A stretch of 64,000 nt of DNA from Flexithrix dorotheae DSM 6795 (GTDB lineage Bacteria; Bacteroidota; Bacteroidia; Cytophagales; Flammeovirgaceae), in contig NZ_KB903435.1 of NCBI RefSeq assembly GCF_000379765.1, positions 62,110 through 126,109 of the forward strand, written 5' to 3'. This document shows, piece by piece, positions 5,067 to 49,862 of this stretch. The first letter of the stretch is position 1. Every line of letters begins with the position of its first letter. The position numbers were made by a program, and so were the translations under genes. Under the pieces are notes generated by a model. That model did not search any database and was not told the DNA's origin. It saw only the letters and a program-made list of their open reading frames with translations.

Positions 5067-8000
5067 TTATCTGATCAATAGCACAGATCCGGAATAGATA
5101 ATTTCTTTATCAGGTTCTAATTCACTCGTATAGGTAACCTTATAGGGATAAGTTCCTGAAGGCATATCTTTTCCCAAATAATCACCTATCCAGCCTTTTG
5201 TAGGTTCTGTGGTTTTAAATATTGGTTCACCCCATCGGTTATAAATGATTAACTCAAAGGCAACCATATGGGCCCATTCCGGTTTGAAATCATCATTAAC
5301 CCCATCTCCATTAGGTGTAAATGCTGTTGGGAAATAAACCCTTGGAGGGCACAATTCTGTTACTTTCACAGATTTTCTGGAAGTACAACCAACAGAATTT
5401 TCTACAATCACATGATAAATTCCCTCTTTCTCAACTTCAATGATTTGGGTGGTCATATCATTACTCCAGGTATAAGCACTTCCTGCTCCAGCATCCAGTT
5501 TTAGAGGACCATCTTCAAAACAGTGTATCTGTTCTTCAGGAAGGGTTTCAATTGTTGGAATACTATCGAAATTAACCGTTATGGTTTTAGTAAAAATACA
5601 TTCCTTACCCAAATAATCCACCACTGCTTCCACAAAGTAATCACCTGGCTCAGTTACAGCAATTCGAGCTGATCTGTCCCCTGTGGACCAAAGGTATTTT
5701 GCATCATAACCTACTATAGAGGCGTCCAGTATGGGAATCTCGCCCTGACAAACCGCAGTATCCGCATTTAGAATAGGCTCCGGAACTACTACAACCCTAA
5801 CCGAATCAAAACTTAAACAACCATTCTCATCCTGAACGGTAACCGTATAAGTAGTGGTTTCTTCAGGAAGTACATTAATTCCTTTGGTGGTTTCACCTGT
5901 ACTCCATAAATATGTTAATCCTCCTGTAGCAGATAAACTTGTCCTTTCCCCATCACACAATCGCTTATCAATTCCGGCATAAGCCTCAGGTAGGGAATAA
6001 ATAGTTATAGGTTTCACAATTGTGTCCACGCATCCTGTAATACTGGTCACTTTTAGTAATACTTCATAATCACCCGGCTCATCATAAATAAATCCAACTT
6101 CTGCTCCTTCCAATTCAAATTTTCCATCATGATCAAAATCCCATTCCTGTGAGACAAAATCTCTACCTGCATCATTGGAGGTACTTATAAACTGAGCTTC
6201 ACTTCCAAAACAAACATTTTCAGTATTGAAATCAGCCACAGGGCTTTGGTATACAGTAAGTTCCTGGCTTGTTTGACTGATACAACCATTATTTGTTGTC
6301 ACTGTTAGCGTAACTTTATATACTCCTGCATCTGGATAGGTAATACTTGGGTTTTGCTTTGTTGAAGTCATTGCTACCCCACCAATTGAAGTTCCAAAAT
6401 CCCATACCCATGTGGAAAGAAAATCCGTTTCCGGAAAAGGTAGTGAAGTAGAGTCAATAAAGAAGCTCACCTGACCGTTACAGAGGTTTTCTGAAAGGAA
6501 AACCACTTCGGGAACCGGATGAACCTTTACCGGATAAGTAATGAAATGAGAACATCCATTGTTTGTGGTAACCGTAAGTGTCACATCATAAGTCCCGGCT
6601 GCGGTATAATCGAATGTTGGATGCTGTAAATTACTATCCTCTTTTCCATCTCCATCAAAATCCCAAGACCAGGTATTGATTACACTTGTTAAAATTTCAT
6701 CACCATTCATATCTTTTTCCACAGTAGATTTATCAGTAAATACAGTGGTATTTCCAAAACAAACCGAAGTAGCTTCAAAATCTGCTATTGGATTAGGCCT
6801 TACAATTACTTCCGATGTATCAGAAGAGAAACATTCTTTATCCGTGTAAGTAGTTAAAATAACGGTATAAGTTCCCGGCTCTTCATATTCATGTGCAGGG
6901 TTTTGGATAAATCCTTTCTTTCCATCACCAAAATCCCATTGCCATAATCCGATTTCATTCCCCGGAGGCTGATTGCCATCACTATTTGGCGTTAATATAC
7001 TCGCATCGGTGAATTGAGTGATACCGCCATGACAAACTGTATCTGCTACAAAATCGGTGATAGGAGAGGGGTGAATCACAAGTGGTTTAATAATCAAATC
7101 CGAACAAGACTCATCCTGGTTTGTGACCACTCTTAAGCTTACTAACACAGTATCCGGAACAATGTATGTAATATTTGGATTTTGAGTTGTAGCAATATCT
7201 CCATTTCCAAAACTCCAGTACCAGGCTTCAATTTTATTACCAGGTATGGAATCCCCATTTGCGTCAGTTTCCAAAGTAGATAAATCAGTGAAGTTAATAT
7301 CCACTCCCTGGCAGTTGGCATCCATAGAGAAATCAGCCACTGGAGCAGGATGAACAATTACATCAACAACAGCTGAAGTATCATTACAGCTTTTATCTGT
7401 TTCTGCTATTAAATAAGCCTGATAAGTTCCTGGAAAATTATAAGTATGAGAAGCTTCCCCTGTAGCAGTTAGTTCCGGTCGTGAGAAATCTCCAAAATCC
7501 CAATACCAGGCTGTAATTGTATTCCCCGGAATAGAATCCCCTTTATAATCTGGATGAATAGTGGTAATATTATCTGTAAATATATTCTCAGCATATTGGC
7601 AAGCCTCTGAAACTGAAAATACCGGAATGGGGTCTGGATGAATGGTAATGGTTTTTATGAGGGTTCTTTCACATCCTAAAGCTGTTGTGATCGTTAATCT
7701 CACATCATAATCTCCTGCTTTTTCATATACAAAGCCTACCTTGTCCTTGTCAGCACCATTTAATACTTCCGTACCATCATTTTTAAAATCCCATTCCCAA
7801 TGCACTATTCCTGGAACCCTGCTTCCGTAAACTGGATCTGGGAAAGTCGTTTGATCCCAGAAGAAAATACTATCGCCCATACAAACATTGATGCTGGTGT
7901 AGCCAAAGTCTACCTGAGGATCATCTACAGGAACATCTATGGTCACTAATTCCTGGCAACCTTTATCAGTAGTTACTCTTAATGTTACAGGATGATCGCC

Positions 8001-11000
8001 TTGATGATTAAATGGAGGAGCAGTTATAAGCTCTCCCGAATCTTCAAAAATACTGTCATTATTAAAATCCCATTCCCAATTGGTGATGCCACCACTTCCT
8101 ACACTACTGCTGCTGCCATCAAAACTAAATGATTCATCAGCGCAAAAGCCCGTAAAAGTAAAGCCAGGTACTGGAATCTGGTCAGTGGTCAGATCAAAAG
8201 TTTTGGTGGTGGAACTAATACAACCTTTATCGGATGTTACGGTCAAAGTAATTGATTTTGTTGCAGGATAAGAAGCTGGAGTAGGATATACCTTTTTAGC
8301 ATTTCTACCATAGACTTTTTCACCATCAAAATCCCATTCAAATTGAACATTACTATATCCTACAGGTATTGTAGAATTATCAAAGAATAATAAAGTAACT
8401 CCATCACAAACATTGGAAATATCAAAATCTACTACTGGCTTAGGATAAATAGTGATATTTTGAGTAGTCGTATCTTTACAACCCTTATTCGTTGTGGTAA
8501 TTAAAGCAACCGTATAATCACCTGCTACACTATGAGCGAAAGAAGGAGTTTCACCCAAGGCGTCTTCAGTAAATGTTGTTCCATCATAATCAAAATCCCA
8601 TTGATACTTATCAATTAGGCTACCGTTAAAGTTAACAACATCGGATGAATTTGAAATCCCAGCCTGCACATCAGAATCCACACAGACATTATCAATTGTA
8701 AAATTTGCAACTGGCTTAGGATTTACAATTATATCTGTTGTTTCAATAGCCGAACAGCCATTATTAGTAACTACCCGAACGGCAACTTTGTAAGCTCCGT
8801 GTGTAGCAAAGTTATAGTCAATCGTTGCTGTTGAATTAGACGTTGTAGCTTCAATGTTAAAATTACTTCCATCATAATTGAAATCCCATTCGTATTGATC
8901 AATAGCTGGTACTGGAGTTACTCCTCCAGGATTTGCTACATTAGAAGCCGAAGCATCAAAAGTAATCACCTCATTGAAACAAACTTCATTACTTGAAGGT
9001 GCAAGTTTTGGCGTTGGTAATGGATAGATATGTACATCTTTGGTAATTACCTCATTACAAGTACTATCGGTAATTGCTCTTAATGTTACAGGATATATTC
9101 CTGTTCCTCCACTAAATAAATGTTGCGGATTCTGAATGAAACTATCTGGAGTTCCATCATTATCAAAATCCCATTCCCATCCTATTACATTTCCAACAGC
9201 AACTGTGGAAGAATCATAAAACTGGACTGTTTCCCCATCGCAAAGGTTTTCTGTGGAGAATTCAGGAACTGGTAGTGGGTTAATAACAATTTCACGGATA
9301 AAAATATCACTACAACCATTACCTGCAAATACCTCCAATGTAGCCTGATAAGTACCAGCAGTTGAGTAAGACCAAAAAGGATTATCTAAATCACCTTCAT
9401 CAAAAATACCATCTCCATCAAAATCCCATCTGATAGAATCTCGTCCACTTATTGGAGGGAAAGTGGATGTATTGGTAAAATCAATTGTTACCCCTTCACA
9501 TAAATTCTGAAATGGGTCAATTTTAAATTTTCCATATGGTCCATCTTCAAAAATAACTTCTACGGTGTCGCTTTTGGCACAAACTGTATCTCCATTATCC
9601 AAAATGTATAAATCCACTGTATAGGTTTTTGTACTAATCACGGCTGGTAGCGTGATTGAAGGATCATTTGAAAACACAGCTCCTCCATCTACCCTCCATT
9701 CATAATGAATGGTACCCAAAGTAATATTATGAGAAGGATTAAAAGCATTTAAAGTCTGATCTCCAAAGTTGATACAATAGGTCGTATCATTACCTATATC
9801 CAAAGTAGGGCAGGGGAGAACGGTAATGGCGATATCCGATGGTGTTGAAAATCTACAGCCTGCTGTATCATATAAAATCATCTCTGGTTCAAACTTACTT
9901 GGTAAGCCAGCTGTAACAGGATTATATATTTTGGATTTGATCGAATCCTGGGGTGTTTTCAAAGTCAGGTCTCCATCGCCATATTGCCACTGATAGGAAT
10001 TGGTTACATTATCAGAAGTACCTTCAAAGTTAACCTCAAATGGCTCATATCCGATGGTATCGTCTACAGCAAAGGTTCCATCAGGCCCTTTAACCTTTAC
10101 AAAATCTGTAATTGTAACAGAATGACTACAATTAATAGAATCCCAAACGGTAAGTGTAACATCAAACCCCTGGGGATTTGGTCTGTCATAAATTCTTGTG
10201 GGGTTTTGTAAGGTTGAAGTTGCACCATCACCAAAATCCCATAACCAGGCTACAACAGGCACTTTTCCCATGGACGTATCCTGGAAACTAATGGCTGCCG
10301 GAGGGCAATTCACTTCAACAGGATCAGCGGTAAATAAGGCTTCTAACTGATGACCAAGGTTTATCTCAAAAGTTTTAGTGATAGTATTTGTACAACCATA
10401 CTTATCGGTTACTTCCAAAGTCACCTCATGTGTTCCATCAGGAAAGTTTGCTTTTGGTTTCCTGTTAGAGGAACTTGGTGAAAAGGTAATACCAGAAGTT
10501 GTTGTACTCCACTTATATTTTGGTTCATAGGCAGTACTATCATGCTTTACTCCCACAAAACTCACCTCCATTGTTCCGCATGATCTAACTGAATCCATCG
10601 TAAAATCAGGCTTGGGCATAGTTGCTCTAATCCAGGTGCTTTTGGAATAATTACATCCTTCATTGGTTTCCACCACAAGTGTTACCTTATATCTATCGCT
10701 TTGTTTAGCTTTTGGCTCAGTAAAAGTATAGGTGAAATTCGCTGATGTTTCAGGTTGGGCAACATTGTCAACTTTCCAGATTCTACTCTTAAAGGTAGCC
10801 CCATGAAAAGTGGACTGATCTTCAAAATTTACCGTTAATGGAGCACAACCATTACTTTTATCTTTTACTAATTTGACATTTGGTCCTGTAACCGTAATCC
10901 AGTCTTGCAATAAAGTATCTACCACACAACCATTGGAAGTTACTTGTAATTCTACATCGAAAGTCCCTGCCTTATTAAATGTTACTTCAGGCGTTTTCCC

Positions 11001-13352
11001 GGATTTATTCTGTCCGTCACCAAACTTCCACTTGTAATTTGATCCTCCTACAAATACTGCATCAAAATTAATTTTATCCCCAATACAAATGTTATGGTCC
11101 GAAGCAGTAGGGTTGAGGTCTGGAAGCGGAGCAGGCATGGTAACCACTCTCTCGTGATAATCATAACAGCCAATTCCTCCTAATGGAGCATTATTAAATA
11201 CCTCCAATTCTATAGTAGCAGTTACTCCAGGTTCAACCTGCCAAACCGGGTTTAGATCTGTGGAAAAATCTGCGTTTCCTGCATCATCAAAATACTTCCA
11301 GCTGTGCAACTGCGCATTTTGGCTTTGGTTCACGATTTCCAATCTTCCCGGATCACAATTATCAATGATCACATCAAAATCCGCCAACGGGACTTCCATT
11401 GTGATAGTCTTGTAAATAGGCTCAGAATAACACCCATTTGAATACGCTCTCATAGCAACCGTAATTGGACCCGCAGGTAGGTTATCATATACATTGGATC
11501 CATTATAAGCACTTTGCCAGTTACCAGAGTTGGTATAATCCCATTCGAAGAATGTTGGAAATGGATTGCTCGGATCGGTTACCGAATTATTTGCAAAATC
11601 AACTCTGGTTCCATTACAAATAACCGTTTTGGAAGGGGTAAAATCCAGACTGATTGGAGGCATCCCCACCCTTACGTAGTTATACCTTGTAAAATCTTCG
11701 CTACATTCAGAATTTGAAGCGGTTAATTTTATTTTATAGGTCCCAGTATTTAAATTAAAATTAGGTTCTTCATCAGTTGAGGTTTTCACTAATACGTTAT
11801 CCTGATTATAAACCTCCCAAAACCAATCTGTTACACTTATACTACCTAAAGTAGAAGTACGATTCTCTAATTGAATAGCTAAAGGCTCGCATCCTTCTCT
11901 ATTACCATCAATCCTAAAATCCACATCTATTGGTTGGGATTCAATACGAATCGTTTCCGTTTCCTCACAACCTAGTCCATCATCTATGGTAAGTCTAACA
12001 TCAAAAACACCATGGCTGGTAAAATTATGGGAAATATTGTTTGGAGGTGTTCCGGCTCCGGTAATCGAATTACCATCTCCAAAATCAATTTTATAATTCA
12101 CTGCATTTTCAGAGGCACTTCCATCAAAAGTTACTGTGAAATTATCAGCACAAAATTCTGTATGGTCTGCCTGAATATCTGCCACAAGCTGTGGAGGAAT
12201 ATCCAGGGTTTTGGTTACCACACCCACACAAGTACCATCCCCACCTGTAATCGTCATGGTTATGGTTCTGGTTTGCGTTGTAGTTGTATTATTATTAAAA
12301 GTATGATTTACATCTCTTCCGGTATCAGAATTTCCATCACCGAAATCCCAGGAAACATTTTGAAAGGAAAATTGAGGAGAAGAATTATCTTTAAAATTAA
12401 CCTGCATAGGGGTACAGGTTGTAATTAAACTCATATCAAAATCAGCTGTAAAATCATGTAGTTGAATGTAATCATCCCTGGTGAAAGTTTGAGAACAACC
12501 AGATTCGTGGGTTACCGTAAGTGTTACATCAAATAAATCCGGATCGCTTCCGGTCTTGGAATAAGTATGTGTAGGATCCTTATCGGTAGAAGTTGAACCA
12601 TCTCCAAACTCCCAGAGATAGGTCAGGCTACCTGGTGATCCTATACTGGTGTTATCATTAAACTTAACAGTAAGGTCATTTCCACAGCTTATTCTTATAT
12701 CATTCGTAATAAAATCTACATCCAGATCATCAATGATGGTAATTAAACCTGTTTTTTTTATGGCAGCTCTACAACCATTATCATCTTCCACAAAAACAGC
12801 CACATCAAAAACCCCAGCTTCATTAAAAACATAAAAAACATTTTTTCCTGTGGCCGACCCGCCATTACCAAATTCCCAAATCGTTTTTGAATCATCTATA
12901 TTACCTGAAACCCCATCGGATTTATCTTTAAAATAGATGGTATCTCCTTTACATCCACCAATAGCACTATAAGTAAATTCAGCCTGAGGCCCTTCAAAAA
13001 CCTCCACAAAATCTGTTTTAGTCACAATTGCATCCGGAGTTGGAGAATTGTCATAATAAATCTCCACTTTTATGGTAAATGTACCTGAAGTGTTATAAAT
13101 CCTTCCTACTTTTTGCCTGCCTGCTCCTTCGGGTTTAATATTATCTCCCAGATCCCACTTATAATTTGTTACCGTTTTAGAAGGATCAAGTCCTGTTACT
13201 TCAAACTCCACAGAAAAAGGAATACAGCCTTTTTCTACTGAACCTGAAACAAGCTTGATATCTTCCTGTGCCATCAGGTTATTCCCCAAAATGAAAAATG
13301 TAATTAGAAGAATCCACCGAAAGTTTTGTAAAGTTTTGTAGTTTTTAGCCAT
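5067..13352 (-). CDS. Giant secreted PKD-repeat protein with T9SS type B (CHU_C) C-terminus
   Basis: The 2,761-aa protein begins with a signal peptide (hydrophobic WILLITFFILGNNLMA, cleavage near residue 28). About 25 immunoglobulin-like PKD domains follow, each marked by variants of WDFGDG, WDFDGDG or WDFNND and by THTY/YTVTLTV-type strands. Near the end is a segment with TYLWSTGETT, YLWSTGDRSA and YTWSNDMTTQ units. The last ~90 residues form a gliding-motility-type domain: FPTAFTPNGDGVNDDF, then IYNRWGEPIF and a final SGSVLLIR. That end is the T9SS type B sorting signal, so the protein should cross the outer membrane and be exposed or released, probably as an adhesin or matrix fibre. A PorP/SprF-family gene lies just upstream, a pairing known for SprB-like adhesins. 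The paired cysteines near most repeat borders suggest disulfide bonds. The ligand cannot be told from sequence. Confidence 0.92.
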   Translation of the reverse strand: MAKNYKTLQNFRWILLITFFILGNNLMAQEDIKLVSGSVEKGCIPFSVEFEVTGLDPSKTVTNYKWDLGDNIKPEGAGRQKVGRIYNTSGTFTIKVEIYYDNSPTPDAIVTKTDFVEVFEGPQAEFTYSAIGGCKGDTIYFKDKSDGVSGNIDDSKTIWEFGNGGSATGKNVFYVFNEAGVFDVAVFVEDDNGCRAAIKKTGLITIIDDLDVDFITNDIRISCGNDLTVKFNDNTSIGSPGSLTYLWEFGDGSTSTDKDPTHTYSKTGSDPDLFDVTLTVTHESGCSQTFTRDDYIQLHDFTADFDMSLITTCTPMQVNFKDNSSPQFSFQNVSWDFGDGNSDTGRDVNHTFNNNTTTTQTRTITMTITGGDGTCVGVVTKTLDIPPQLVADIQADHTEFCADNFTVTFDGSASENAVNYKIDFGDGNSITGAGTPPNNISHNFTSHGVFDVRLTIDDGLGCEETETIRIESQPIDVDFRIDGNREGCEPLAIQLENRTSTLGSISVTDWFWEVYNQDNVLVKTSTDEEPNFNLNTGTYKIKLTASNSECSEDFTRYNYVRVGMPPISLDFTPSKTVICNGTRVDFANNSVTDPSNPFPTFFEWDYTNSGNWQSAYNGSNVYDNLPAGPITVAMRAYSNGCYSEPIYKTITMEVPLADFDVIIDNCDPGRLEIVNQSQNAQLHSWKYFDDAGNADFSTDLNPVWQVEPGVTATIELEVFNNAPLGGIGCYDYHERVVTMPAPLPDLNPTASDHNICIGDKINFDAVFVGGSNYKWKFGDGQNKSGKTPEVTFNKAGTFDVELQVTSNGCVVDTLLQDWITVTGPNVKLVKDKSNGCAPLTVNFEDQSTFHGATFKSRIWKVDNVAQPETSANFTYTFTEPKAKQSDRYKVTLVVETNEGCNYSKSTWIRATMPKPDFTMDSVRSCGTMEVSFVGVKHDSTAYEPKYKWSTTTSGITFSPSSSNRKPKANFPDGTHEVTLEVTDKYGCTNTITKTFEINLGHQLEALFTADPVEVNCPPAAISFQDTSMGKVPVVAWLWDFGDGATSTLQNPTRIYDRPNPQGFDVTLTVWDSINCSHSVTITDFVKVKGPDGTFAVDDTIGYEPFEVNFEGTSDNVTNSYQWQYGDGDLTLKTPQDSIKSKIYNPVTAGLPSKFEPEMILYDTAGCRFSTPSDIAITVLPCPTLDIGNDTTYCINFGDQTLNAFNPSHNITLGTIHYEWRVDGGAVFSNDPSITLPAVISTKTYTVDLYILDNGDTVCAKSDTVEVIFEDGPYGKFKIDPFQNLCEGVTIDFTNTSTFPPISGRDSIRWDFDGDGIFDEGDLDNPFWSYSTAGTYQATLEVFAGNGCSDIFIREIVINPLPVPEFSTENLCDGETVQFYDSSTVAVGNVIGWEWDFDNDGTPDSFIQNPQHLFSGGTGIYPVTLRAITDSTCNEVITKDVHIYPLPTPKLAPSSNEVCFNEVITFDASASNVANPGGVTPVPAIDQYEWDFNYDGSNFNIEATTSNSTATIDYNFATHGAYKVAVRVVTNNGCSAIETTDIIVNPKPVANFTIDNVCVDSDVQAGISNSSDVVNFNGSLIDKYQWDFDYDGTTFTEDALGETPSFAHSVAGDYTVALITTTNKGCKDTTTQNITIYPKPVVDFDISNVCDGVTLLFFDNSTIPVGYSNVQFEWDFDGEKVYGRNAKKVYPTPASYPATKSITLTVTSDKGCISSTTKTFDLTTDQIPVPGFTFTGFCADESFSFDGSSSSVGSGGITNWEWDFNNDSIFEDSGELITAPPFNHQGDHPVTLRVTTDKGCQELVTIDVPVDDPQVDFGYTSINVCMGDSIFFWDQTTFPDPVYGSRVPGIVHWEWDFKNDGTEVLNGADKDKVGFVYEKAGDYDVRLTITTALGCERTLIKTITIHPDPIPVFSVSEACQYAENIFTDNITTIHPDYKGDSIPGNTITAWYWDFGDFSRPELTATGEASHTYNFPGTYQAYLIAETDKSCNDTSAVVDVIVHPAPVADFSMDANCQGVDINFTDLSTLETDANGDSIPGNKIEAWYWSFGNGDIATTQNPNITYIVPDTVLVSLRVVTNQDESCSDLIIKPLVIHPSPITDFVADTVCHGGITQFTDASILTPNSDGNQPPGNEIGLWQWDFGDGKKGFIQNPAHEYEEPGTYTVILTTYTDKECFSSDTSEVIVRPNPIADFEATSVCFGNTTVFTDKSTVEKDMNGDEILTSVINTWSWDFDGDGKEDSNLQHPTFDYTAAGTYDVTLTVTTNNGCSHFITYPVKVHPVPEVVFLSENLCNGQVSFFIDSTSLPFPETDFLSTWVWDFGTSIGGVAMTSTKQNPSITYPDAGVYKVTLTVTTNNGCISQTSQELTVYQSPVADFNTENVCFGSEAQFISTSNDAGRDFVSQEWDFDHDGKFELEGAEVGFIYDEPGDYEVLLKVTSITGCVDTIVKPITIYSLPEAYAGIDKRLCDGERTSLSATGGLTYLWSTGETTKGINVLPEETTTYTVTVQDENGCLSFDSVRVVVVPEPILNADTAVCQGEIPILDASIVGYDAKYLWSTGDRSARIAVTEPGDYFVEAVVDYLGKECIFTKTITVNFDSIPTIETLPEEQIHCFEDGPLKLDAGAGSAYTWSNDMTTQIIEVEKEGIYHVIVENSVGCTSRKSVKVTELCPPRVYFPTAFTPNGDGVNDDFKPEWAHMVAFELIIYNRWGEPIFKTTEPTKGWIGDYLGKDMPSGTYPYKVTYTSELEPDKEIIYSGSVLLIR

Positions 13353-33674: not shown

Positions 33675-33745
33675 TACGAAAATATTCGTAGATAGACTTG
33701 ACTTATTCAATTCTCTCTAATACATTTGTTACGAACTTATTCGTA
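33675..33745 (+). promoter_or_regulatory. blaI promoter with two BlaI-type operators
   Basis: Two 16-bp palindromes, TACGAAAATATTCGTA (33675-33690) and TACGAACTTATTCGTA (33730-33745), share the half-site TACGAA/TTCGTA. Between them lies a promoter: TTGAC at 33698-33702, a gap of about 20 bases, and an exact -7 element TACATTTG at 33721-33728. The second operator would cover the transcription start, 27 bases before the blaI start codon. This is the expected layout of an autorepressed BlaI/MecI system. Confidence 0.85.
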
Positions 33746-33771: not shown

Positions 33772-34164
33772 ATGAAAAACAATCCACTACCCAAACCGAC
33801 CGAATCGGAACTGGATATTTTGCAAATACTCTGGGAGTTTGGCCCAAGTACTGTCCGATTTGTAAATGACCAGCTGAACAAGCTCAAAACAACCGGATAT
33901 ACCACCACGCTGAAAATTATGCAAATTATGGCAGAAAAGGGACTGGTGGCCCGGGAGCTTTCTGGAAAAACCCATATTTATGAGGCAGTTGCCAAAGAAG
34001 AAGCTACCCAACTTCAGTTACTTGATAGATTTGTTGAAAAGGTGTTTAAAGGCTCAGCGGCAAAATTGATGCTGCAGGCATTGGGCAATAAAAAGTCCAG
34101 CCCTAAGGAAATCAAACAAATCAAAAAATTATTAGAAGACCTTGAAAATAACAAAGAGCTATGA
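33772..34164 (+). CDS. BlaI/MecI/CopY-family repressor
   Basis: The 130-aa protein matches BlaI-type winged-helix repressors: PTESELDILQILWEFGPSTVRFVNDQLNK, GYTTTLKIMQIMAEKGLVARE (recognition helix and wing) and the C-terminal dimerisation helices. Such repressors keep their own promoter off until a membrane M56 protease triggers their cleavage. The two palindromes upstream (33675-33745) are the likely operators. Its last codons overlap the M56 gene by 4 bases (ATGA), which makes them a coupled pair. There is no beta-lactamase gene nearby, so the inducer may be another envelope stress. Confidence 0.92.
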   Translation: MKNNPLPKPTESELDILQILWEFGPSTVRFVNDQLNKLKTTGYTTTLKIMQIMAEKGLVARELSGKTHIYEAVAKEEATQLQLLDRFVEKVFKGSAAKLMLQALGNKKSSPKEIKQIKKLLEDLENNKEL

Positions 34165-36902
34165 ATATTTTAGATAAAATTGCTACTATGGATAATATGG
34201 TAGAGGCCCTGAGCATCACTATTTTACATTCTCTCTGGCAGGGTTTACTTATTGCGGTATTATTGGGAATTATTCTTAAGATCCTTCGAAGAAAAAGCGC
34301 TGAAACCCGATATTTAGCCTCTTTGTCCGCTATGTTGGTTCTACTTGTTGTGGTGGTGAGTACATTTCTGATTACTTTCCAATCTGAAGAAAACCTGAAT
34401 ACTTCTTCCGGATTAATGCCATCAATTATTTATGAGGATTTATCGGAATTGTCAATTTCCAGTAAGTCAACCAAAAATTCACTATCATCTTTATTGAGTA
34501 GTTTTTACAATAACACTGTGGAAACAATAAAAACCTATTCTGATATGATTTTCATTTGTTGGCTGGTAGGGGTTGGTTTTTTCTCTTTGCGATTTATCAG
34601 TGGGTTATATTATATTCAAAAAATCAAAACACAGAAAGTTCAACCTGTAACTGAATACTGGCAGGAGAAACTGGAGGTGATGTGTGCAAAAATGAATATT
34701 TCCCTGAAGGTTAGCCTGTTCCAATCTGATTTGGTAGAAGTGCCTACGGTAGTTGGGTGGTTAAAACCAGTGATTCTGATGCCTGTGAGTATGCTTTCTC
34801 AAATTCCAGTAGCTGAAATTGAAGCCATTCTGGCACATGAACTTGCGCATATCAGGAGGTTCGATTATCTGTTCAACATCCTTCAGTCGATTATTGAAAT
34901 TCTCCTGTTTTTCAATCCTGCTGCCTGGTGGATTTCTGTTTGTATTAATGATGAAAGGGAAAACTGCTGTGACGACCTTGCACTGAAAGCTACAGGAAGT
35001 GTAAAAGCCTATGTCAATGCCCTGGCCAACCTTGCACAAACCCAGTATAATACACCCGAGTTTTCACTTTCGGTAATGGGGAAAAAGGGCAGTGTATTGT
35101 ATAGAATAAAAAGAATTGTGGCGAAGGGAAACAATCAGTTGGAAAGTGCCAATGCCCTTTCTCAAAAAACACTTGGAAGATTTACCGCAGCATTATTTAC
35201 CCTATTCCTGCTGGTTTTCTTTACAGTATCTTCCGGATATAAGCCAAGTAATGCGATGCCTCCTGAATGGAAAACAGACCAGGTAAAAACTATTTTTCTG
35301 GATGATACCACCAAAAAGAAAAAACTGAAAGTAATTGAAATAGCAGTGGAAGGTAACTCATCAGAGATTGCTCAGGATTCCAATGTCTGGGTGAATGAGG
35401 AAATTTTCACCATAGAAGATGGAGATACCATTATGCACAATATTGTTGGCATTGGAGAAGGAGGTACCTGGGTAGGTAAAAATATGGATGGTTCATTTGA
35501 TGGTGTGGATGAAATCATTGAATTTCATTCTGAAAATGATTCTCTTTTAAATACACATGACGTGAAAGTGATGTACTTGAAAAATGGGAAAATGATAAGA
35601 GAAGAGCTTATGCAATATAAGGGAGATTTTTATCAGGGGGATTTTCATTTCGAAAATGATAGTTTAAACTCGGGTAAGGGAAAAAAAATTCAGGTGAATT
35701 TGATTAATGGAAATAATCCAAATTTACCATTAGGGGATTCGACCAAAAAGCAAAGAAATATAGTATTTATTGGAAAGGATAGTCTTCATACCGGAAAACA
35801 TCATGATGCAAAAGTAAGAATCGTATCTACCAATGAAGGAAAGGATCCCCTATATGTGATTGATGGAAGGGTGCAAAAAACAAATAAAGAAATATTTGAT
35901 TTAGATCCTCATGAAATAAAACGTATGGATGTACTTAAAGGCGAAAGTGCTATTGCAATGTATGGAGAAAAAGGGAAGGATGGTGTAATTTTAATTACCA
36001 CAAAAAATAATAAAGAGTCAAAAGAAAATCAAAAGAAAAAGATTGATTTAATTGACAATAAAAATATAGAATCGGATAGTACTTTTTCTGGGAAACATCA
36101 TGTGTCACGAGTAAAAATTGTATCACCTAATGGAGTATTAGAACCCCTTTATGTTATTGATGGAAAAATTCAAACTGAAATTAATGATTTAGATCCAAAT
36201 AGCATTAAGAATATCGAAGTACTTAAAGATGAAGCTGCTATTGCCAAATATGGAGATAAAGGGAAAAATGGGGTAATTATTATTACCACGAAATCCTTCA
36301 AAGAACCAAAAGAAAAAGAGAAGGTTAAAACCAAGGTAAAGGTTAAAAAATTTGCTGAATCGGATAGCAATCTTGTAGTAGATATTAAAGATTCTAACAG
36401 CGTTAAAATCAAGTCATCAGATAGCATGGATGATGTTACCATTTTTATTGATGGATTTGAAAGTTCCCAAAAATCTTTGGAGGCACTGGATCCTACAAGC
36501 ATTGCTACCATTGAAGTGATAAAAGGTGAAAAAGCAGTGGAAAAATTTGGAGAAGTGAGTAAAAAAGGGGTGATTTTGGTAAAGACTAAAAAAGGGACTG
36601 GACCTGTAGTTGAAAAGCAAAGTTTAGTCACAAAATCAGCTTTGGCGCAATCTGTAATAGCCTATCCCAACCCAACCGAAGGAGAGATGAATATCAGTTT
36701 TGAGTTAAAGGAAAATGAAAAAGTAAGTATTGAAATATTCGATCTTTCAGGTAAAAAAGTGGAGACCTTATTGAACAAATCAATGGCTGCTGGCAAGCAC
36801 CAGGTAACCTGGGACTCAAAGGATTTGCCCTCAGGTTCTTATTTGCTGAATATCTCTACCAAAAATGAAAAAATTGAGAGGAAAGTTTTATTAAACAAAT
36901 AA
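34161..36902 (+). CDS. BlaR1-like M56 membrane protease with TonB-plug-like repeats and T9SS type A tail
   Basis: The 913-aa protein has M56 features: transmembrane helices near residues 15-40, 45-70 and 125-150, the zinc motif HELAH at 226-230 inside ILAHELAHIRRFDYLFN, and another helix near 345-365. The usual sensor domain is replaced by ~540 residues of other sequence. Three repeats resemble the plug region of TonB-dependent receptors (PLYVIDGRVQ...IKRMDVLKGESAIAMYGEKG...DGVILITTK, near 563, 660 and 755). The last ~80 residues form a T9SS type A sorting domain (YPNPTEGEMNISFEL ... GSYLLNISTK). It should sense an envelope signal and cleave or induce cleavage of BlaI. A sorting tail on a protein with transmembrane helices is odd, because type IX cargo normally is free of them. 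The tail may instead act as an interaction module. Confidence 0.85.
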   Translation: MNILDKIATMDNMVEALSITILHSLWQGLLIAVLLGIILKILRRKSAETRYLASLSAMLVLLVVVVSTFLITFQSEENLNTSSGLMPSIIYEDLSELSISSKSTKNSLSSLLSSFYNNTVETIKTYSDMIFICWLVGVGFFSLRFISGLYYIQKIKTQKVQPVTEYWQEKLEVMCAKMNISLKVSLFQSDLVEVPTVVGWLKPVILMPVSMLSQIPVAEIEAILAHELAHIRRFDYLFNILQSIIEILLFFNPAAWWISVCINDERENCCDDLALKATGSVKAYVNALANLAQTQYNTPEFSLSVMGKKGSVLYRIKRIVAKGNNQLESANALSQKTLGRFTAALFTLFLLVFFTVSSGYKPSNAMPPEWKTDQVKTIFLDDTTKKKKLKVIEIAVEGNSSEIAQDSNVWVNEEIFTIEDGDTIMHNIVGIGEGGTWVGKNMDGSFDGVDEIIEFHSENDSLLNTHDVKVMYLKNGKMIREELMQYKGDFYQGDFHFENDSLNSGKGKKIQVNLINGNNPNLPLGDSTKKQRNIVFIGKDSLHTGKHHDAKVRIVSTNEGKDPLYVIDGRVQKTNKEIFDLDPHEIKRMDVLKGESAIAMYGEKGKDGVILITTKNNKESKENQKKKIDLIDNKNIESDSTFSGKHHVSRVKIVSPNGVLEPLYVIDGKIQTEINDLDPNSIKNIEVLKDEAAIAKYGDKGKNGVIIITTKSFKEPKEKEKVKTKVKVKKFAESDSNLVVDIKDSNSVKIKSSDSMDDVTIFIDGFESSQKSLEALDPTSIATIEVIKGEKAVEKFGEVSKKGVILVKTKKGTGPVVEKQSLVTKSALAQSVIAYPNPTEGEMNISFELKENEKVSIEIFDLSGKKVETLLNKSMAAGKHQVTWDSKDLPSGSYLLNISTKNEKIERKVLLNK

Positions 36903-45122: not shown

Positions 45123-46577
45123 TCAGGTTAATAAATCAGTGACAACGTTTCCATGGACATCTGTTAACCTGTATCTTCTTCCCTGATGTTTGAAAGTCAG
45201 TTTTTCATGGTCAACTCCAAGCAGGTGAAGTAAGGTAGCCTGAAAATCGTGCACATGGACGGGGTCTTTTACGATATTAAACCCAAAATCATCGGTTTGG
45301 CCGTGAATGTAACCTTTTTTCACTCCAGCTCCCGCCATCCATACAGAAAAGCAATAAGCATGATGATCTCTGCCATAATTTGTCTTGGTTAATTTCCCCT
45401 GAGAATAATTAGTTCTTCCAAATTCTCCTCCCCATATCACCAAAGTATCTTCCAGTAATCCTCTTTGTTTTAAATCTTTGATTAATGCTGCCGTAGGCTG
45501 ATCCACACTTTTACACATGGTTTGAATATCGTTGGGTAGATTGCCGTGCTGATCCCATCCCTGATGATACAATTGGATGAATTTCACATCTCTTTCGGCC
45601 AGTCTTCTGGCTAAAAGGCAATTGGCTGCATATGTTCCAGGTTTTCTGGAATCAGGACCGTACATGTCATAAATATAATCTGGCTCCCCGGTGATATCCA
45701 TCGTTTCAGGCACAGAACTTTGCATTCGGTAGGCCATTTCATATTGGGCAATTTTCGATTGAATTTCCGGATCTTCAAAAGCATTATATTGGTTTTCATA
45801 GACCTGCTTTAAATATTCCAGTTGTCTGGCCCGGTCATTTCTGTCAATTCCCGGAGGATTGTTCAGGTATAAAACAGGGTCTTTCCCCGAACGGAATTGT
45901 ACCCCCTGGTGCAGAGAAGGTAAAAAGCCATTGCCCCAAAGTCTTGAATAAAGTGGTTGGCCACCATTTCTTCCGGCTGATAGCAACACACAAAAGGAGG
46001 GTAGGTTTTCATTGTCGGTACCCAGGCCATAGCTAAGCCATGAGCCAATAGATGGCCTACCCGGTTGTTGAGATCCGGTTTGGAAGAAAGTAATAGCCGG
46101 ATCGTGATTAATGGCTTCAGTGTACATGGATTTGATCAGGCAAATTTCATCTGAAATTCCGGCAATATTGGGCAGTAATTCACTTACTTCTATACCAGAC
46201 TGGCCATGTTTATTAAATTTGAAATGAGAAGCTGCTAATGGAATGGATTTTTGACCCGAAGTCATTCCTGTAAGTCTTCTGCCCTTTAGCACAGAATCGG
46301 GAAGTTGTTCTCCATGCATTTTTTCCAAAGTAGGCTTGTAATCATAAGTTTCCAGCTGAGATGGGCCACCCGATTGAAAAAGATAAATAATCCTTTTGGC
46401 TTTAGGCAGATGGTGCAATTTATCCAGAATGCCACCGCCATCATTGGGTATTCCACTGGAAGCTAATAATTTATTTCCTGAGAATAAAGAAGCTAATGCT
46501 ACTCCTCCCAGGCCTAGTGAACTTTTGGTAAGAAAATCTCTTCTGGATTTTGTGCGGTGGTTTTCAAATGCTTTCAT
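45123..46577 (-). CDS. DUF1501 protein (Tat-exported)
   Basis: The 484-aa protein starts with a twin-arginine signal (KSRRDFLTKSSLGLGGVALASLF) and matches DUF1501: AKRIIYLFQSGGPSQLETYDYKP near residue 55, KSMYTEAINHDPAITFFQTG, YAANCLLARRLAERDVKFIQLYHQGWDQHGN, and DTLVIWGGEFGRTNYSQG ... GRDHHAYCFSVWMAGAGVK. The fold is alkaline-phosphatase-like (sulfatase or phosphatase superfamily). Such proteins pair with DUF1549/DUF1553 cytochrome proteins, first known from planctomycetes, as the next gene upstream shows. The partners are presumed to act together outside the cytoplasm; the substrate is unknown. Confidence 0.9.
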   Translation of the reverse strand: MKAFENHRTKSRRDFLTKSSLGLGGVALASLFSGNKLLASSGIPNDGGGILDKLHHLPKAKRIIYLFQSGGPSQLETYDYKPTLEKMHGEQLPDSVLKGRRLTGMTSGQKSIPLAASHFKFNKHGQSGIEVSELLPNIAGISDEICLIKSMYTEAINHDPAITFFQTGSQQPGRPSIGSWLSYGLGTDNENLPSFCVLLSAGRNGGQPLYSRLWGNGFLPSLHQGVQFRSGKDPVLYLNNPPGIDRNDRARQLEYLKQVYENQYNAFEDPEIQSKIAQYEMAYRMQSSVPETMDITGEPDYIYDMYGPDSRKPGTYAANCLLARRLAERDVKFIQLYHQGWDQHGNLPNDIQTMCKSVDQPTAALIKDLKQRGLLEDTLVIWGGEFGRTNYSQGKLTKTNYGRDHHAYCFSVWMAGAGVKKGYIHGQTDDFGFNIVKDPVHVHDFQATLLHLLGVDHEKLTFKHQGRRYRLTDVHGNVVTDLLT

Positions 46578-46625: not shown

Positions 46626-49600
46626 CTATCGCTTGGTATAAACTTCATCCTGATTCATCATCATGCTGGTGGTCACGGCAAGTGCTGCAGTTTTTACCGG
46701 ATCAAGCTGGCGATCAAAAGGCATATCACCAATGGACAAAAGTTCCCGGGCTTTTCCAGGATTTTCCTTATAGTTTTTCAATTCATCCTCATACAGATTT
46801 TTAAACAATAATAACTCGTCCTGATTGGGATTTCTGCCGGTTAAGAGTCTGAAACCGGTTTCAATTTTGGTATCAATTTCTCCTTGATCGTCTTTCAATA
46901 ATTTTTCAGCTAACACCCTGGAAGCCTCCACATATTGTGGGTCATTAAGCAACACCAGTGCCTGTAAAGGTGTATTGGTATTTTGCCTTCTCACTATGCA
47001 AACATTCCGGTCGGAACCATCGAAAGCCATCATAGAAGGGGGAGGGGAAGTTCGTCTGATAAAGGTGTACATGCTTCTTCGGTAAAGTCCTTCTCCTTTG
47101 TCTTCCTTGTACTTTAATAAAATGGCGGAAAAGGAAGCTTTTTCACTCCACAATCCTTTTGGCTGATAGGGCTTTACACTGGGGCCACCTACTTTTTTCA
47201 CTAATAGTCCGCTGGAAGCCAAGACATTATCCCGAATCATTTCCGCTGACATACGGTGTTTTGGGCCTCTTGCTAAAAGGATATTTTCAGGATCAGATTC
47301 CCTTAATTCCTTCGAAGCTTTGGAACTTTGTCGGTAAGTGGCTGACATTACAATCATTTTTTGAAGTGCCTTTACATCCCAGCCGGATTCCCTGAAATGG
47401 ATGGCAAGCCAGTCTAATAATTTGGGATGGCTGGGTAATGCTCCCTGGTTTCCAAAATCTTCCGGAGTACTCACTATTCCTTTTCCAAAATAGTTTTGCC
47501 AATAGCGGTTTACTGTAACCCTGGCAGTTAAAGGATTATCTTCATGGAAAAGCCATTGTGCCAGTCCAAGTCTGTTTTTAGGTAAATCCTCAGCGAAGCT
47601 CAAAACAGCATCGGGTGTTCCGGGATCAACTTCTTCTTTTGGAGAATCATAAACCCCTCTGTCCAACACATGCGTTTTTCTGGGTTTATCCATTTCTTCC
47701 ATCACCATCACTTCCGAAATAGTATCCAAAAGACTGAAATCCTTTTTCCGGATATCCAGTAATTCTTGTTGAATTTTTTTGACTTGAGCATCCTGAGTTT
47801 TGGCAAAATACTCGGCTGCCAGCTTTTTATCATTATCCGTCCAATTATCTGGATTTTCGGGAATACCATCTTTTCCGGCTAAAACTGCAACTTCCAAAGC
47901 GGATAAATCCCTGTTGTAAATCACAATTTCTGAAAGGTTTCCTGTATAGATTCCATTATCTCCTGAAAATGCCCTGTAGCTTTTTCCAAATTGTAAGTTT
48001 TTATTCTGGGATTTTAGAGATTTATACAGGTTATCATGGTGAACAGTCACCTCAGCTTCCTTACCATTGAGGAAAATCTTCAAGCCCTTTGCTTTACTGG
48101 ACCCATCGTAGGTAATGGTAATCTGAGTCCATTCTTTTTCCGAAACTTTTTCTTTTGTTGAAATATGGATGAGGTTATGGGGTAAGGCATGCATTAACCT
48201 TACTGTAAGTTGCAGATTTTTATCCAGGTAAGCCTCATAACCTCTCCAGTAAGAGTTTTTATTTCCGGCATTTCCAAAAATTACGGTAAAATCATCTACA
48301 TTTTCCGGAGCTGCCCAAACCCCAATACTGAAGGGTTCATATCTTTCTACATGGGCCACGCCTTCCAAATGAAGATAATCATAATCGTCATTAAAATTTA
48401 ATCCTTTATGTGTTCCTCTTTCCACAATATCCAGTTCTCCATAGGCTTTTGCAGGTTTGGATGGCGATTTCAGGTTTCTTGTTTTATTATTTTCGGTCTG
48501 CTCCAGCGGGTAATGTGCCACAAGGCCATTTTGTGGAATTTTAGCAGGTTTTTTAAATTGTTTTACCAATAAGTCAGATTGAGAAATCTGTTCAATTATT
48601 TCCGCTAGTTTTTCGTCACCCCCTTTAAGCTGATTTTTGATAAATTCAATTTGCTGATCGGTTTCCTCTGATGTCATCCACAGCATGGGACCTGCATTGC
48701 CATCATCTCCGGTCATTCCCACCTCATTCACATTATTATAAAAAGCAGAAAGTTTGTAAAAATCCTTTTGGGTAAGGGGATCATATTTATGGTCGTGACA
48801 CCGGCTACATTCCAGGGTTAATCCTAAAAACGCTCTTGAAGTTGTAATAGCCCGGTCAAATACATATTCTAGTCGGTATTCTTCATCCACAATTCCACCT
48901 TCGGCTGTCATCGGATGATTTCGCTGAAATGCCGTTGCCAGAATTTGTTCTTTGCTGGGGTTGGGCATCAGATCTCCGGCAATTTGTTCAGTTACAAACT
49001 GATCGAATGGCATATTTTTATCAAATGCATCTATCACCCAGTCACGCCAGGGCCACATGTAGCGATAACCATCTGCGTGATAACCATGGGAATCGGCATA
49101 ACGAGCTACATCCAGCCAGTCCATAGTCAGTTTTTCAGCGTGTTCTTTGGACTTTAAAAGCCGGTCTACCAGCTTTTCATAAGCATTTTCAGAGTGGTCA
49201 TTTAAAAATGCATCAATTTGTGAAAGGGTAGGGGGAAGCCCTGTAAGGTCAAGATAAACTCTACGAACCAGTGTTTCTTTATTGGCTTCCTCAGAAAAGG
49301 AAAGTCCTTGTTTTTCCAGATTATTTAATACAAAATAGTCAATTTCATTTATCACAAGACCCTCTTCCTTTACCGTGGGAACTTCAGGTTTTTCAGGTTT
49401 GATAAATGACCAGTGAGGTTTGTATTCTGCACCCTGCTCAATCCATTTGGCAATAGTGGCAATTTCCTCCGTGCTTAAAGTAAGGTTGGATTCGCTTGGT
49501 GGCATTACCTGTTCCGGATCGTCAGAAATCATGCGGTACCAGACTTCGCTTTTGCCCAGCTTTCCCGGTACAATGGCATGTTTTCCCGGTGATTCCGTTA

Positions 49601-49862
49601 ATGCGGCATAAGCTCCTTCTTCCGTGTCCAGTCTGAGGCCGGCTTCTCTTTTATTGTTATCAAAACCATGGCAGGCAAAGCACCTGTCGGAAAGAATTGG
49701 TTTTACATGCAGGTTAAAGTCAATTTTTTCGGGAAGATCCTGATAAGCCTCCACAATTTCTGCTGGCTTTTCCACATGACAGCTTGCCGAAATTAGCGCA
49801 ATGAATAGACAAAGAAGCTGGGAAGAGAAAAGGTAAATGCTAGGTAATTTTCCGCGTTTCAT
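46626..49862 (-). CDS. DUF1549/DUF1553 protein with planctomycete-type cytochrome c and LamG-like domains
   Basis: The 1,078-aa protein has a lipoprotein-like signal (FSSQLLCLFIALISASCHVEK). In order it has a c-type cytochrome with CFACHGFDNNKREAGLRLD near residue 58 and VMPPSESNLTL, then DUF1549 (DYFVLNNLEKQGLSFSEEA, YLDLTGLPPTLSQIDAFL, DWLDVARYADSHGYHADGYRYMWPWRDWV). A concanavalin-like (LamG) segment lies near 450-650 (FSIGVWAAPENVDDFTVIF). DUF1553 follows (LAQWLFHEDNPLTARVTVNRYWQNYFGKGIV, ALVLLNDPQYVEASRVLAEK). The family occurs with DUF1501 proteins, as here (48-base gap). It probably takes electrons from substrate oxidation outside the membrane. The LamG insert suggests glycan binding. 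Confidence 0.92.
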   Translation of the reverse strand: MKRGKLPSIYLFSSQLLCLFIALISASCHVEKPAEIVEAYQDLPEKIDFNLHVKPILSDRCFACHGFDNNKREAGLRLDTEEGAYAALTESPGKHAIVPGKLGKSEVWYRMISDDPEQVMPPSESNLTLSTEEIATIAKWIEQGAEYKPHWSFIKPEKPEVPTVKEEGLVINEIDYFVLNNLEKQGLSFSEEANKETLVRRVYLDLTGLPPTLSQIDAFLNDHSENAYEKLVDRLLKSKEHAEKLTMDWLDVARYADSHGYHADGYRYMWPWRDWVIDAFDKNMPFDQFVTEQIAGDLMPNPSKEQILATAFQRNHPMTAEGGIVDEEYRLEYVFDRAITTSRAFLGLTLECSRCHDHKYDPLTQKDFYKLSAFYNNVNEVGMTGDDGNAGPMLWMTSEETDQQIEFIKNQLKGGDEKLAEIIEQISQSDLLVKQFKKPAKIPQNGLVAHYPLEQTENNKTRNLKSPSKPAKAYGELDIVERGTHKGLNFNDDYDYLHLEGVAHVERYEPFSIGVWAAPENVDDFTVIFGNAGNKNSYWRGYEAYLDKNLQLTVRLMHALPHNLIHISTKEKVSEKEWTQITITYDGSSKAKGLKIFLNGKEAEVTVHHDNLYKSLKSQNKNLQFGKSYRAFSGDNGIYTGNLSEIVIYNRDLSALEVAVLAGKDGIPENPDNWTDNDKKLAAEYFAKTQDAQVKKIQQELLDIRKKDFSLLDTISEVMVMEEMDKPRKTHVLDRGVYDSPKEEVDPGTPDAVLSFAEDLPKNRLGLAQWLFHEDNPLTARVTVNRYWQNYFGKGIVSTPEDFGNQGALPSHPKLLDWLAIHFRESGWDVKALQKMIVMSATYRQSSKASKELRESDPENILLARGPKHRMSAEMIRDNVLASSGLLVKKVGGPSVKPYQPKGLWSEKASFSAILLKYKEDKGEGLYRRSMYTFIRRTSPPPSMMAFDGSDRNVCIVRRQNTNTPLQALVLLNDPQYVEASRVLAEKLLKDDQGEIDTKIETGFRLLTGRNPNQDELLLFKNLYEDELKNYKENPGKARELLSIGDMPFDRQLDPVKTAALAVTTSMMMNQDEVYTKR

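Follow-up and report, generated by a model that had tools for sequence, protein, structure and literature searches.

A single open reading frame (ORF) in a 64,000-nucleotide stretch of the Flexithrix dorotheae DSM 6795 genome (contig NZ_KB903435.1, positions 62,110 to 126,109; this whole stretch is called the window below) joins an M56 protease of the BlaR1 type to three half-plug repeats like those of TonB-dependent transporters and to a true type A C-terminal domain (CTD) of the type IX secretion system (T9SS). The protein is a variant of a known protease type with an unusual combination of domains; among the matches listed in full-text literature searches, none treated the M56-plug-CTD architecture as judged by title or the start of the abstract. 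Judged by its sequence, the protein is not a beta-lactam receptor, because the penicillin sensor is missing, nor is it a TonB-dependent transporter, because it has half-plugs but no barrel. This odd combination is kept across two families, and through it the cell may be able to link protein export with the control of genes.

A protease, half-plugs and a type A tail in one reading frame

The product matches Peptidase_M56 (PF05569) at residues 36-317 (E 1.1e-30; 107 bits against a cut-off of 31). The initial annotation, made from the sequence alone, had described a BlaR1-type protease whose beta-lactam sensor was replaced, and this description held: HELAH is present at residues 226-230, and the active-site residues H226, H230, E267 and D271 have the spacing of H201, H205, E242 and D246 in S. 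aureus BlaR1, as given in an excerpt of its structural report (PMC9834060). With phmmer, residues 128-353 align with residues 104-324 of BlaR1. A simple hydropathy scan gave five hydrophobic segments (residues 21-39, 55-73, 129-147, 244-262 and 338-356), where the same excerpt describes four full transmembrane (TM) helices and a re-entrant loop for BlaR1 (PMC9834060). No penicillin-binding domain was found among the Pfam families matched at E<=1, and the NCBIfam models of BlaR1 and MecR1 scored far below their own cut-offs on the 913-residue protein. When a model of the full-length protein was searched with Foldseek, BlaR1 structures took ranks 1-5 (best E 3.5e-6), the useful matches coming from the protease and CTD parts only.

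Plug was matched by Pfam in three stretches (E 8.4e-16), as was the SusC/RagA signature TIGR04057 of NCBIfam (83.4 bits; cut-off 46.2). The plug fold proposed earlier for the three repeats is thus supported, whereas their extent had to be refined: we call them half-plugs because the best one spans no more than positions 55-106 of the 107-position Pfam plug profile. Repeat 1 was modelled on the basis of 24 repeats (mean predicted local distance difference test score, pLDDT, 76; predicted template-modelling score, pTM, 0.58), and the model retrieved TonB-dependent transporters and no other fold at ranks 1-30 of a Foldseek search against the PDB, including SusC (8aa4_A; E 1.6e-3, query-side template-modelling score, TMq, 0.64) and RagA (6sml_B; 1.4 A over 52 columns); no PDB match reached E 0.001. 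By sequence, the repeats match the plug region at the N terminus of SusC chains (e.g. residues 28-135 of 6zlt_B). No outer-membrane barrel family appeared among the Pfam hits of the protein, and the NCBIfam SusC model TIGR04056 stayed below its cut-off, with its best stretch in the plug region. In the orthologue of a second genome of the same genus (G012; L010:747-1268), the first two repeats share 82% identity as protein and 86% as DNA, including a long identical stretch, while the same pair in the window's protein is 62% identical; the repeats in G012 have perhaps been homogenised recently.

The tail was matched as Por_Secre_tail at residues 835-909 (E 8.1e-15) and as TIGR04183 (48.6 bits; cut-off 23), and it ranked 11th among the 120 TIGR04183 matches of the F. 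dorotheae genome (G000; 9.5 Mb in 101 contigs), for which 150 of 181 candidates were scored. Rank 6 of the full-length model in Foldseek was the T9SS-bound CTD of NucA (8glk_D; E 6e-4, target-side score, TMt, 0.72). The CTD is 80% identical to that of the G012 orthologue, the same level of conservation as in the protease part (81%), with the plugs at 60% and the linker at 59%. Two motifs of the CTD, the Gly of motif L-beta3-beta4 and a Lys motif in the last strand, matter in P. gingivalis (PMC11285876); a Gly that we equated by eye with the former is kept in 8/8 orthologues, and the last-strand Lys in 7/8, the remaining one having Arg. F. dorotheae also encodes four full-length PorU-family sortases (contigs C1, C29, C69 and C30), all above the model cut-off, in a search for T9SS machinery that was confined to PorU and to this genome. 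The type A sorting domain of the initial annotation is therefore well founded, and so is its remark that such a signal sits oddly on a protein with TM helices. Within this genome the combination of a T9SS tail with a polytopic protein is unusual: none of 40 other tail proteins (of 119) had a hydrophobic segment beyond residue 60, in a sample that was drawn from the higher-scoring rows with some omitted, in which four frames were open at the 5' end and one was only 46 residues long as read, and in which 17 of the 40 gave no segment at all, signal peptide included. Elsewhere in the window, positions 5067-13352 (-) encode a 2761-residue protein that contains numerous PKD domains and bears a T9SS signal of the CHU_C type.

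Distribution of the architecture and control of its operon

The distribution of this architecture rests on searches with the M56 part only; a full-length query scored two candidates per genome, and its misses were not used. Such a protease was found in 4 of 18 genomes of the family at E<=1e-8, and the order-level search of 390 genomes gave 89 matches in 82 genomes at E<=1e-60, with at most five candidates scored per genome at this and the phylum level. All 89 proteins were classified with profile models built for the purpose (that of G034 being cut by a contig end): 8 combine the CTD with two to four plug repeats, 3 have one plug without the CTD and 78 have neither, and none has a CTD without plugs. 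A tree built from the 89 protease domains groups the 8 plug and CTD proteins in one supported clade of 11 (99/82) that spans two families. The tail claimed by the initial annotation is thus present in every one of the 89 M56 proteins that has at least two plugs (8/8) and is absent from three members of the same clade, L161 (G020; one partial plug), L341 (G054) and L168 (G106), which have at most one partial plug and form a natural series for probing function. The tree needs at least two changes, that is, one gain plus one loss, or two gains. A label-shuffle count as low in 128 of 500 shuffles compares the 11 labelled rows only and has no bearing on clustering among the 89.

At the phylum level, 56 of 395 genomes held a total of 62 matches at E<=1e-30, and the 34 of these that were examined held no further plug and CTD case. 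In one set of 49 frames, order-level hits included, one was the F. dorotheae gene itself cut short, one (L228) had one plug-like stretch and 47 had neither domain. One database record labelled uncultured Thalassobius (L039, CAKZMZ010000267.1), an alphaproteobacterial name, has the same M56 frame as contig C267 of G002, a genome placed in the family of F. dorotheae; the label is perhaps wrong.

A BlaI homologue stands directly 5' of the M56 gene in 8/8 plug and CTD loci, and in the window the M56 ORF begins inside the end of blaI with an overlap of 4 nt; besides blaI, no neighbour was common between genera when the 8 loci, several of them on short contigs, were compared by eye. The blaI gene is preceded by two operator-like dyads on either side of promoter-like elements (Table 1), TTGAC and TACATTTG, which presumably belong to the Bacteroidetes promoter type with TTG at -33 and TAnnTTTG at -7. 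A search of the window for the dyad with <=1 mismatch gave 2 matches against a mean of 0.06 expected, and 0 of 100 shuffles reached 2. Similar dyads lie 5' of blaI in relatives, with looser variants in G119, G144 and G171, and the spacing from start to start is 54-56 nt in five genomes, among them G068 with a looser variant.

The exact dyad occurs twice each in G000, G012 (84% complete) and G013, and only at the blaI-M56 promoter. Dyads with <=1 mismatch were fewer than matches to the reversed pattern in all three genomes (13 v 40, 6 v 21 and 17 v 59, respectively); of the 11 one-mismatch sites off the promoter in G000, 8 lie inside reading frames and 3 are intergenic, and in G012 3 of 4 lie inside frames. 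Because the exact dyad is found only there, the one-mismatch counts are below control and the sites are mostly in frames, BlaI, whose binding to the dyads we infer, probably controls mainly its own operon, with the M56 protein itself as the output. A wider BlaI regulon was looked for and could not be established. The suggestion that the protein reads out the state of the outer membrane or of the T9SS found no echo in the BlaI sites of F. dorotheae, which point to the operon itself and were not seen to govern a set of T9SS or outer-membrane genes.

With a relaxed pattern, G012 was the one genome of the seven others whose count exceeded its control (9 v 4); the counts of the remaining six were no higher than their controls. 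One relaxed site in G171 lies 54 nt before a TlpA/AhpC-like gene that is itself directly 5' of blaI, and in G144 the dyads occupy the space that separates blaI from a divergent PhoD-like gene; with such variant sites outside the family of F. dorotheae, neighbours or other genes may share them, or the dyads may belong to other regulators. G144 also has two ParE-type toxin genes with small partners (L296, C254, positions 1228 and 1762), with a relaxed TACGA-N6-TCGTA 42 and 54 nt 5' of their operons. A plug-less M56 paralogue in F. dorotheae (L001, G000:C80:241560-245438) has its own type of site, mostly TACGA[T/C]-N4-[A/G]TCGTA, in five copies before its blaI. A further copy of this type precedes a MacB/FtsX-type permease in G000 (L304, C2:796351) and its look-alike in G012 (L300, C61), at distances of 34 and 50 nt, and in G013 (L299, C1:4680616) one lies shortly before the likely start of a similar protein, inside its longest frame; judged by these sites, and by Pfam on the G000 protein only, these genes are a likely regulon of the paralogue. 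Elsewhere in the window, a protein with PSCyt1, PSCyt2 and PSD1 domains adjoins a DUF1501 protein (46626-49862 and 45123-46577, -).

Table 1. Positions in the window of the M56-plug-CTD gene, its parts, the repressor gene and the putative control elements
Feature	Position	Strand	Remarks and basis
Operator-like dyad 1, TACGAA-N4-TTCGTA	33675..33690	+	Before the -33 element TTGAC
Promoter-like elements TTGAC (33698-33702) and TACATTTG (33721-33728)	33698..33728	+	Sequence; similar layout in relatives by eye
Operator-like dyad 2, TACGAA-N4-TTCGTA	33730..33745	+	Just behind the -7 element TACATTTG
blaI-type repressor gene	33772..34164	+	130 aa; Penicillinase_R PF03965, E 2.2e-23, 83 bits
M56 protease - plug repeats - T9SS CTD gene	34161..36902	+	913 aa; Pfam and NCBIfam
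Membrane protease part	34161..35228	+	PF05569, Foldseek to BlaR1 structures, hydropathy
Signal-peptidase-I-like motif S-N-A, residues 363-365, behind TM4	35247..35255	+	Small-x-A comparison across M56 frames
Linker, residues 366-547	35256..35801	+	Low model confidence
Half-plug repeat 1, residues 548-621	35802..36023	+	Pfam, repeat model, Foldseek
Half-plug repeat 2, residues 647-717	36099..36311	+	Pfam
Half-plug repeat 3, residues 744-814	36390..36602	+	Pfam
T9SS type A CTD, residues about 833-913	36657..36899	+	Pfam, NCBIfam, genome ranking, Foldseek

How one polypeptide might be both anchored and exported

These results raise the question of how a single polypeptide can be anchored and yet destined for export. 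In the explanation that we tentatively favour, the ectodomain is detached from a self-regulated BlaR1-like protease and is a client of the T9SS. It starts from what sequence and fold provide, namely the three domain types, the blaI gene, the paired dyads at the operon's own promoter and the lack of an exact dyad elsewhere in three genomes; we infer the topology, the cleavage, the export and a protease activity set by attachment. A signal-peptidase-like site behind the last helix could resolve the paradox. In S. aureus BlaR1, SpsB cuts between Gly331 and Gln332 behind the last TM helix and the sensor is shed (excerpt of PMC9834060). A small-x-Ala motif follows TM4 in 8/8 plug and CTD proteins, with Gln next in two of them, and Gln is typical after a signal-peptidase cut in Bacteroidetes, the Q-rule, as stated in excerpts of PMC5837995 and PMC10653852. 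The rank and conservation of the CTD, its kept Gly and Lys, the PorU-family sortases and the finding that none of the 89 proteins has a CTD without plugs also count in favour.

In the BlaR1 fashion, the protease would face the cytosol and the C-terminal part the periplasm, where it would consist of a flexible linker, two to four half-plugs and a working CTD. Signal peptidase I would be able to cut behind the last TM helix, as in S. aureus BlaR1, and the T9SS, recognising the CTD, would carry the freed ectodomain to the surface, at which the half-plugs would act. If the ectodomain were still attached, owing to slow export or to a bound ligand, the protease would cleave BlaI, and mainly its own operon would be raised. 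A bolder reading, which we regard as doubtful, is that the receptor senses secretion by being a T9SS substrate itself: the cytosolic protease would be switched when the tail is exported or released, and through BlaI it would set the level of the same protein. If true, the protein would be a self-contained gauge of T9SS throughput; to our knowledge, how Bacteroidota monitor T9SS load is little understood.

Several observations weigh against release and export of the ectodomain. First, the small-x-A rule is loose: 105 of 164 other M56 frames pass it as well (one-sided Fisher p 0.03, relatedness ignored), in a sample of 177 frames from which 4 that were too short and 1 with a weak TM4 were dropped and whose 164 other frames include a truncated copy of the F. 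dorotheae gene and at least 3 truncated duplicates. The motif was therefore rejected as a hallmark of the CTD group, and the site allows release without proving it. Second, nothing in the sequence is evidence of export, and the model of the full-length protein is poor, with a mean pLDDT of 51.5 and values below 50 at residues 346-560. Third, Ig-like domains of other functions (DUF3244, alpha2-macroglobulin and S-layer proteins) follow NucA in Foldseek, and because the fold is an Ig-like sandwich with such varied matches the CTD could have been reused structurally. Fourth, the function is dispensable, because three clade members (G020, G054 and G106) have no CTD and 14 of the 18 genomes of the family have no such protease at E<=1e-8. 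Finally, an intergenic one-mismatch site in G012 (C322), located 153 nt in front of a MacB-like permease and 84 nt in front of a divergent gene, is a possible second BlaI target there, and degenerate BlaI sites elsewhere are conceivable.

Two other explanations can be offered, both of which we consider rather unlikely. The whole protein could stay in the inner membrane as a tethered sensor, with the half-plugs and the CTD contacting parts of outer-membrane transport or of the T9SS and signalling to the protease, which would cleave BlaI and perhaps other targets. This would fit the logic of BlaR1, the CTD is a known recognition element, and in P. gingivalis a CTD protein, PorA, feeds the PorXY-SigP pathway (excerpt of PMC7712824); with its roughly 180 residues, the linker could extend a long way into the periplasm. 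However, in F. dorotheae the dyads were not seen to control any gene of the T9SS or the outer membrane, and an anchored CTD engaged by the translocon would be expected to jam it. Alternatively, the half-plugs and the CTD could be structural or ligand-binding modules of a periplasmic envelope sensor, the CTD being unused for T9SS export. The many unrelated Ig-like matches of its fold are consistent with such reuse, as are the different ectodomains that, by eye, other M56 relatives bear at the same place, and 0/40 polytopic proteins among the other tail proteins is what would be expected if anchoring and export were mutually exclusive. Against this, the CTD retains its sequence hallmarks, including the C-terminal end, outscores most of the genome's tails and is conserved as well as the protease. 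That the ORF is an artefact of gene fusion or assembly, or that the fusion is decaying, is highly improbable in spite of the rarity of the architecture (8/89), and is in our view refuted by the orthologues: the same architecture recurs in 8 genomes of two families, and rough estimates against G012 (Nei-Gojobori method, NG86) gave omega values of 0.10 for the protease part and 0.32 for the plugs, with a dN of 0.10 and no dS obtained for the CTD.

Relation to known systems

The closest known systems are BlaR1/MecR1 and BlaI/MecI (PDB 8exs, 8exp), which likewise combine an M56 protease with the HEXXH...EXXXD motif, a neighbouring BlaI-type repressor, promoter dyads and a cleavable-looking place behind TM4. 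Unlike them, the protein described here has half-plugs and a CTD in place of the penicillin-binding sensor, and its exact dyads are confined to its own promoter in three genomes, with no beta-lactamase or penicillin-binding protein gene seen under them. With the TonB-dependent transporters SusC (8aa4_A) and RagA (6sml_B) it shares the C-terminal half of the plug, but it has no barrel and carries two to four half-plugs in tandem on a predicted inner-membrane protein. F. dorotheae has another M56 protease with a TonB-related ectodomain (L003, G000:C47:320534), which is fused to a TonB C-terminal domain; neither plugs nor CTD were found there. As in T9SS type A cargo (TIGR04183; CTDs of NucA, 8glk, and mirolase, 8qb1), the Ig-like CTD is C-terminal, scores above the curated cut-off and keeps the Gly and Lys, whereas the N-terminal part is polytopic instead of a plain Sec signal peptide without a further TM helix. 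Finally, PorA-PorXY-SigP of P. gingivalis (excerpt of PMC7712824) resembles the present system in that a CTD protein feeds gene regulation; PorA is a separate surface protein that acts via a sensor kinase, while here the CTD is on the protease itself. This conserved link, in one protein, of an inner-membrane protease and its repressor to a T9SS recognition domain offers a directly testable candidate.

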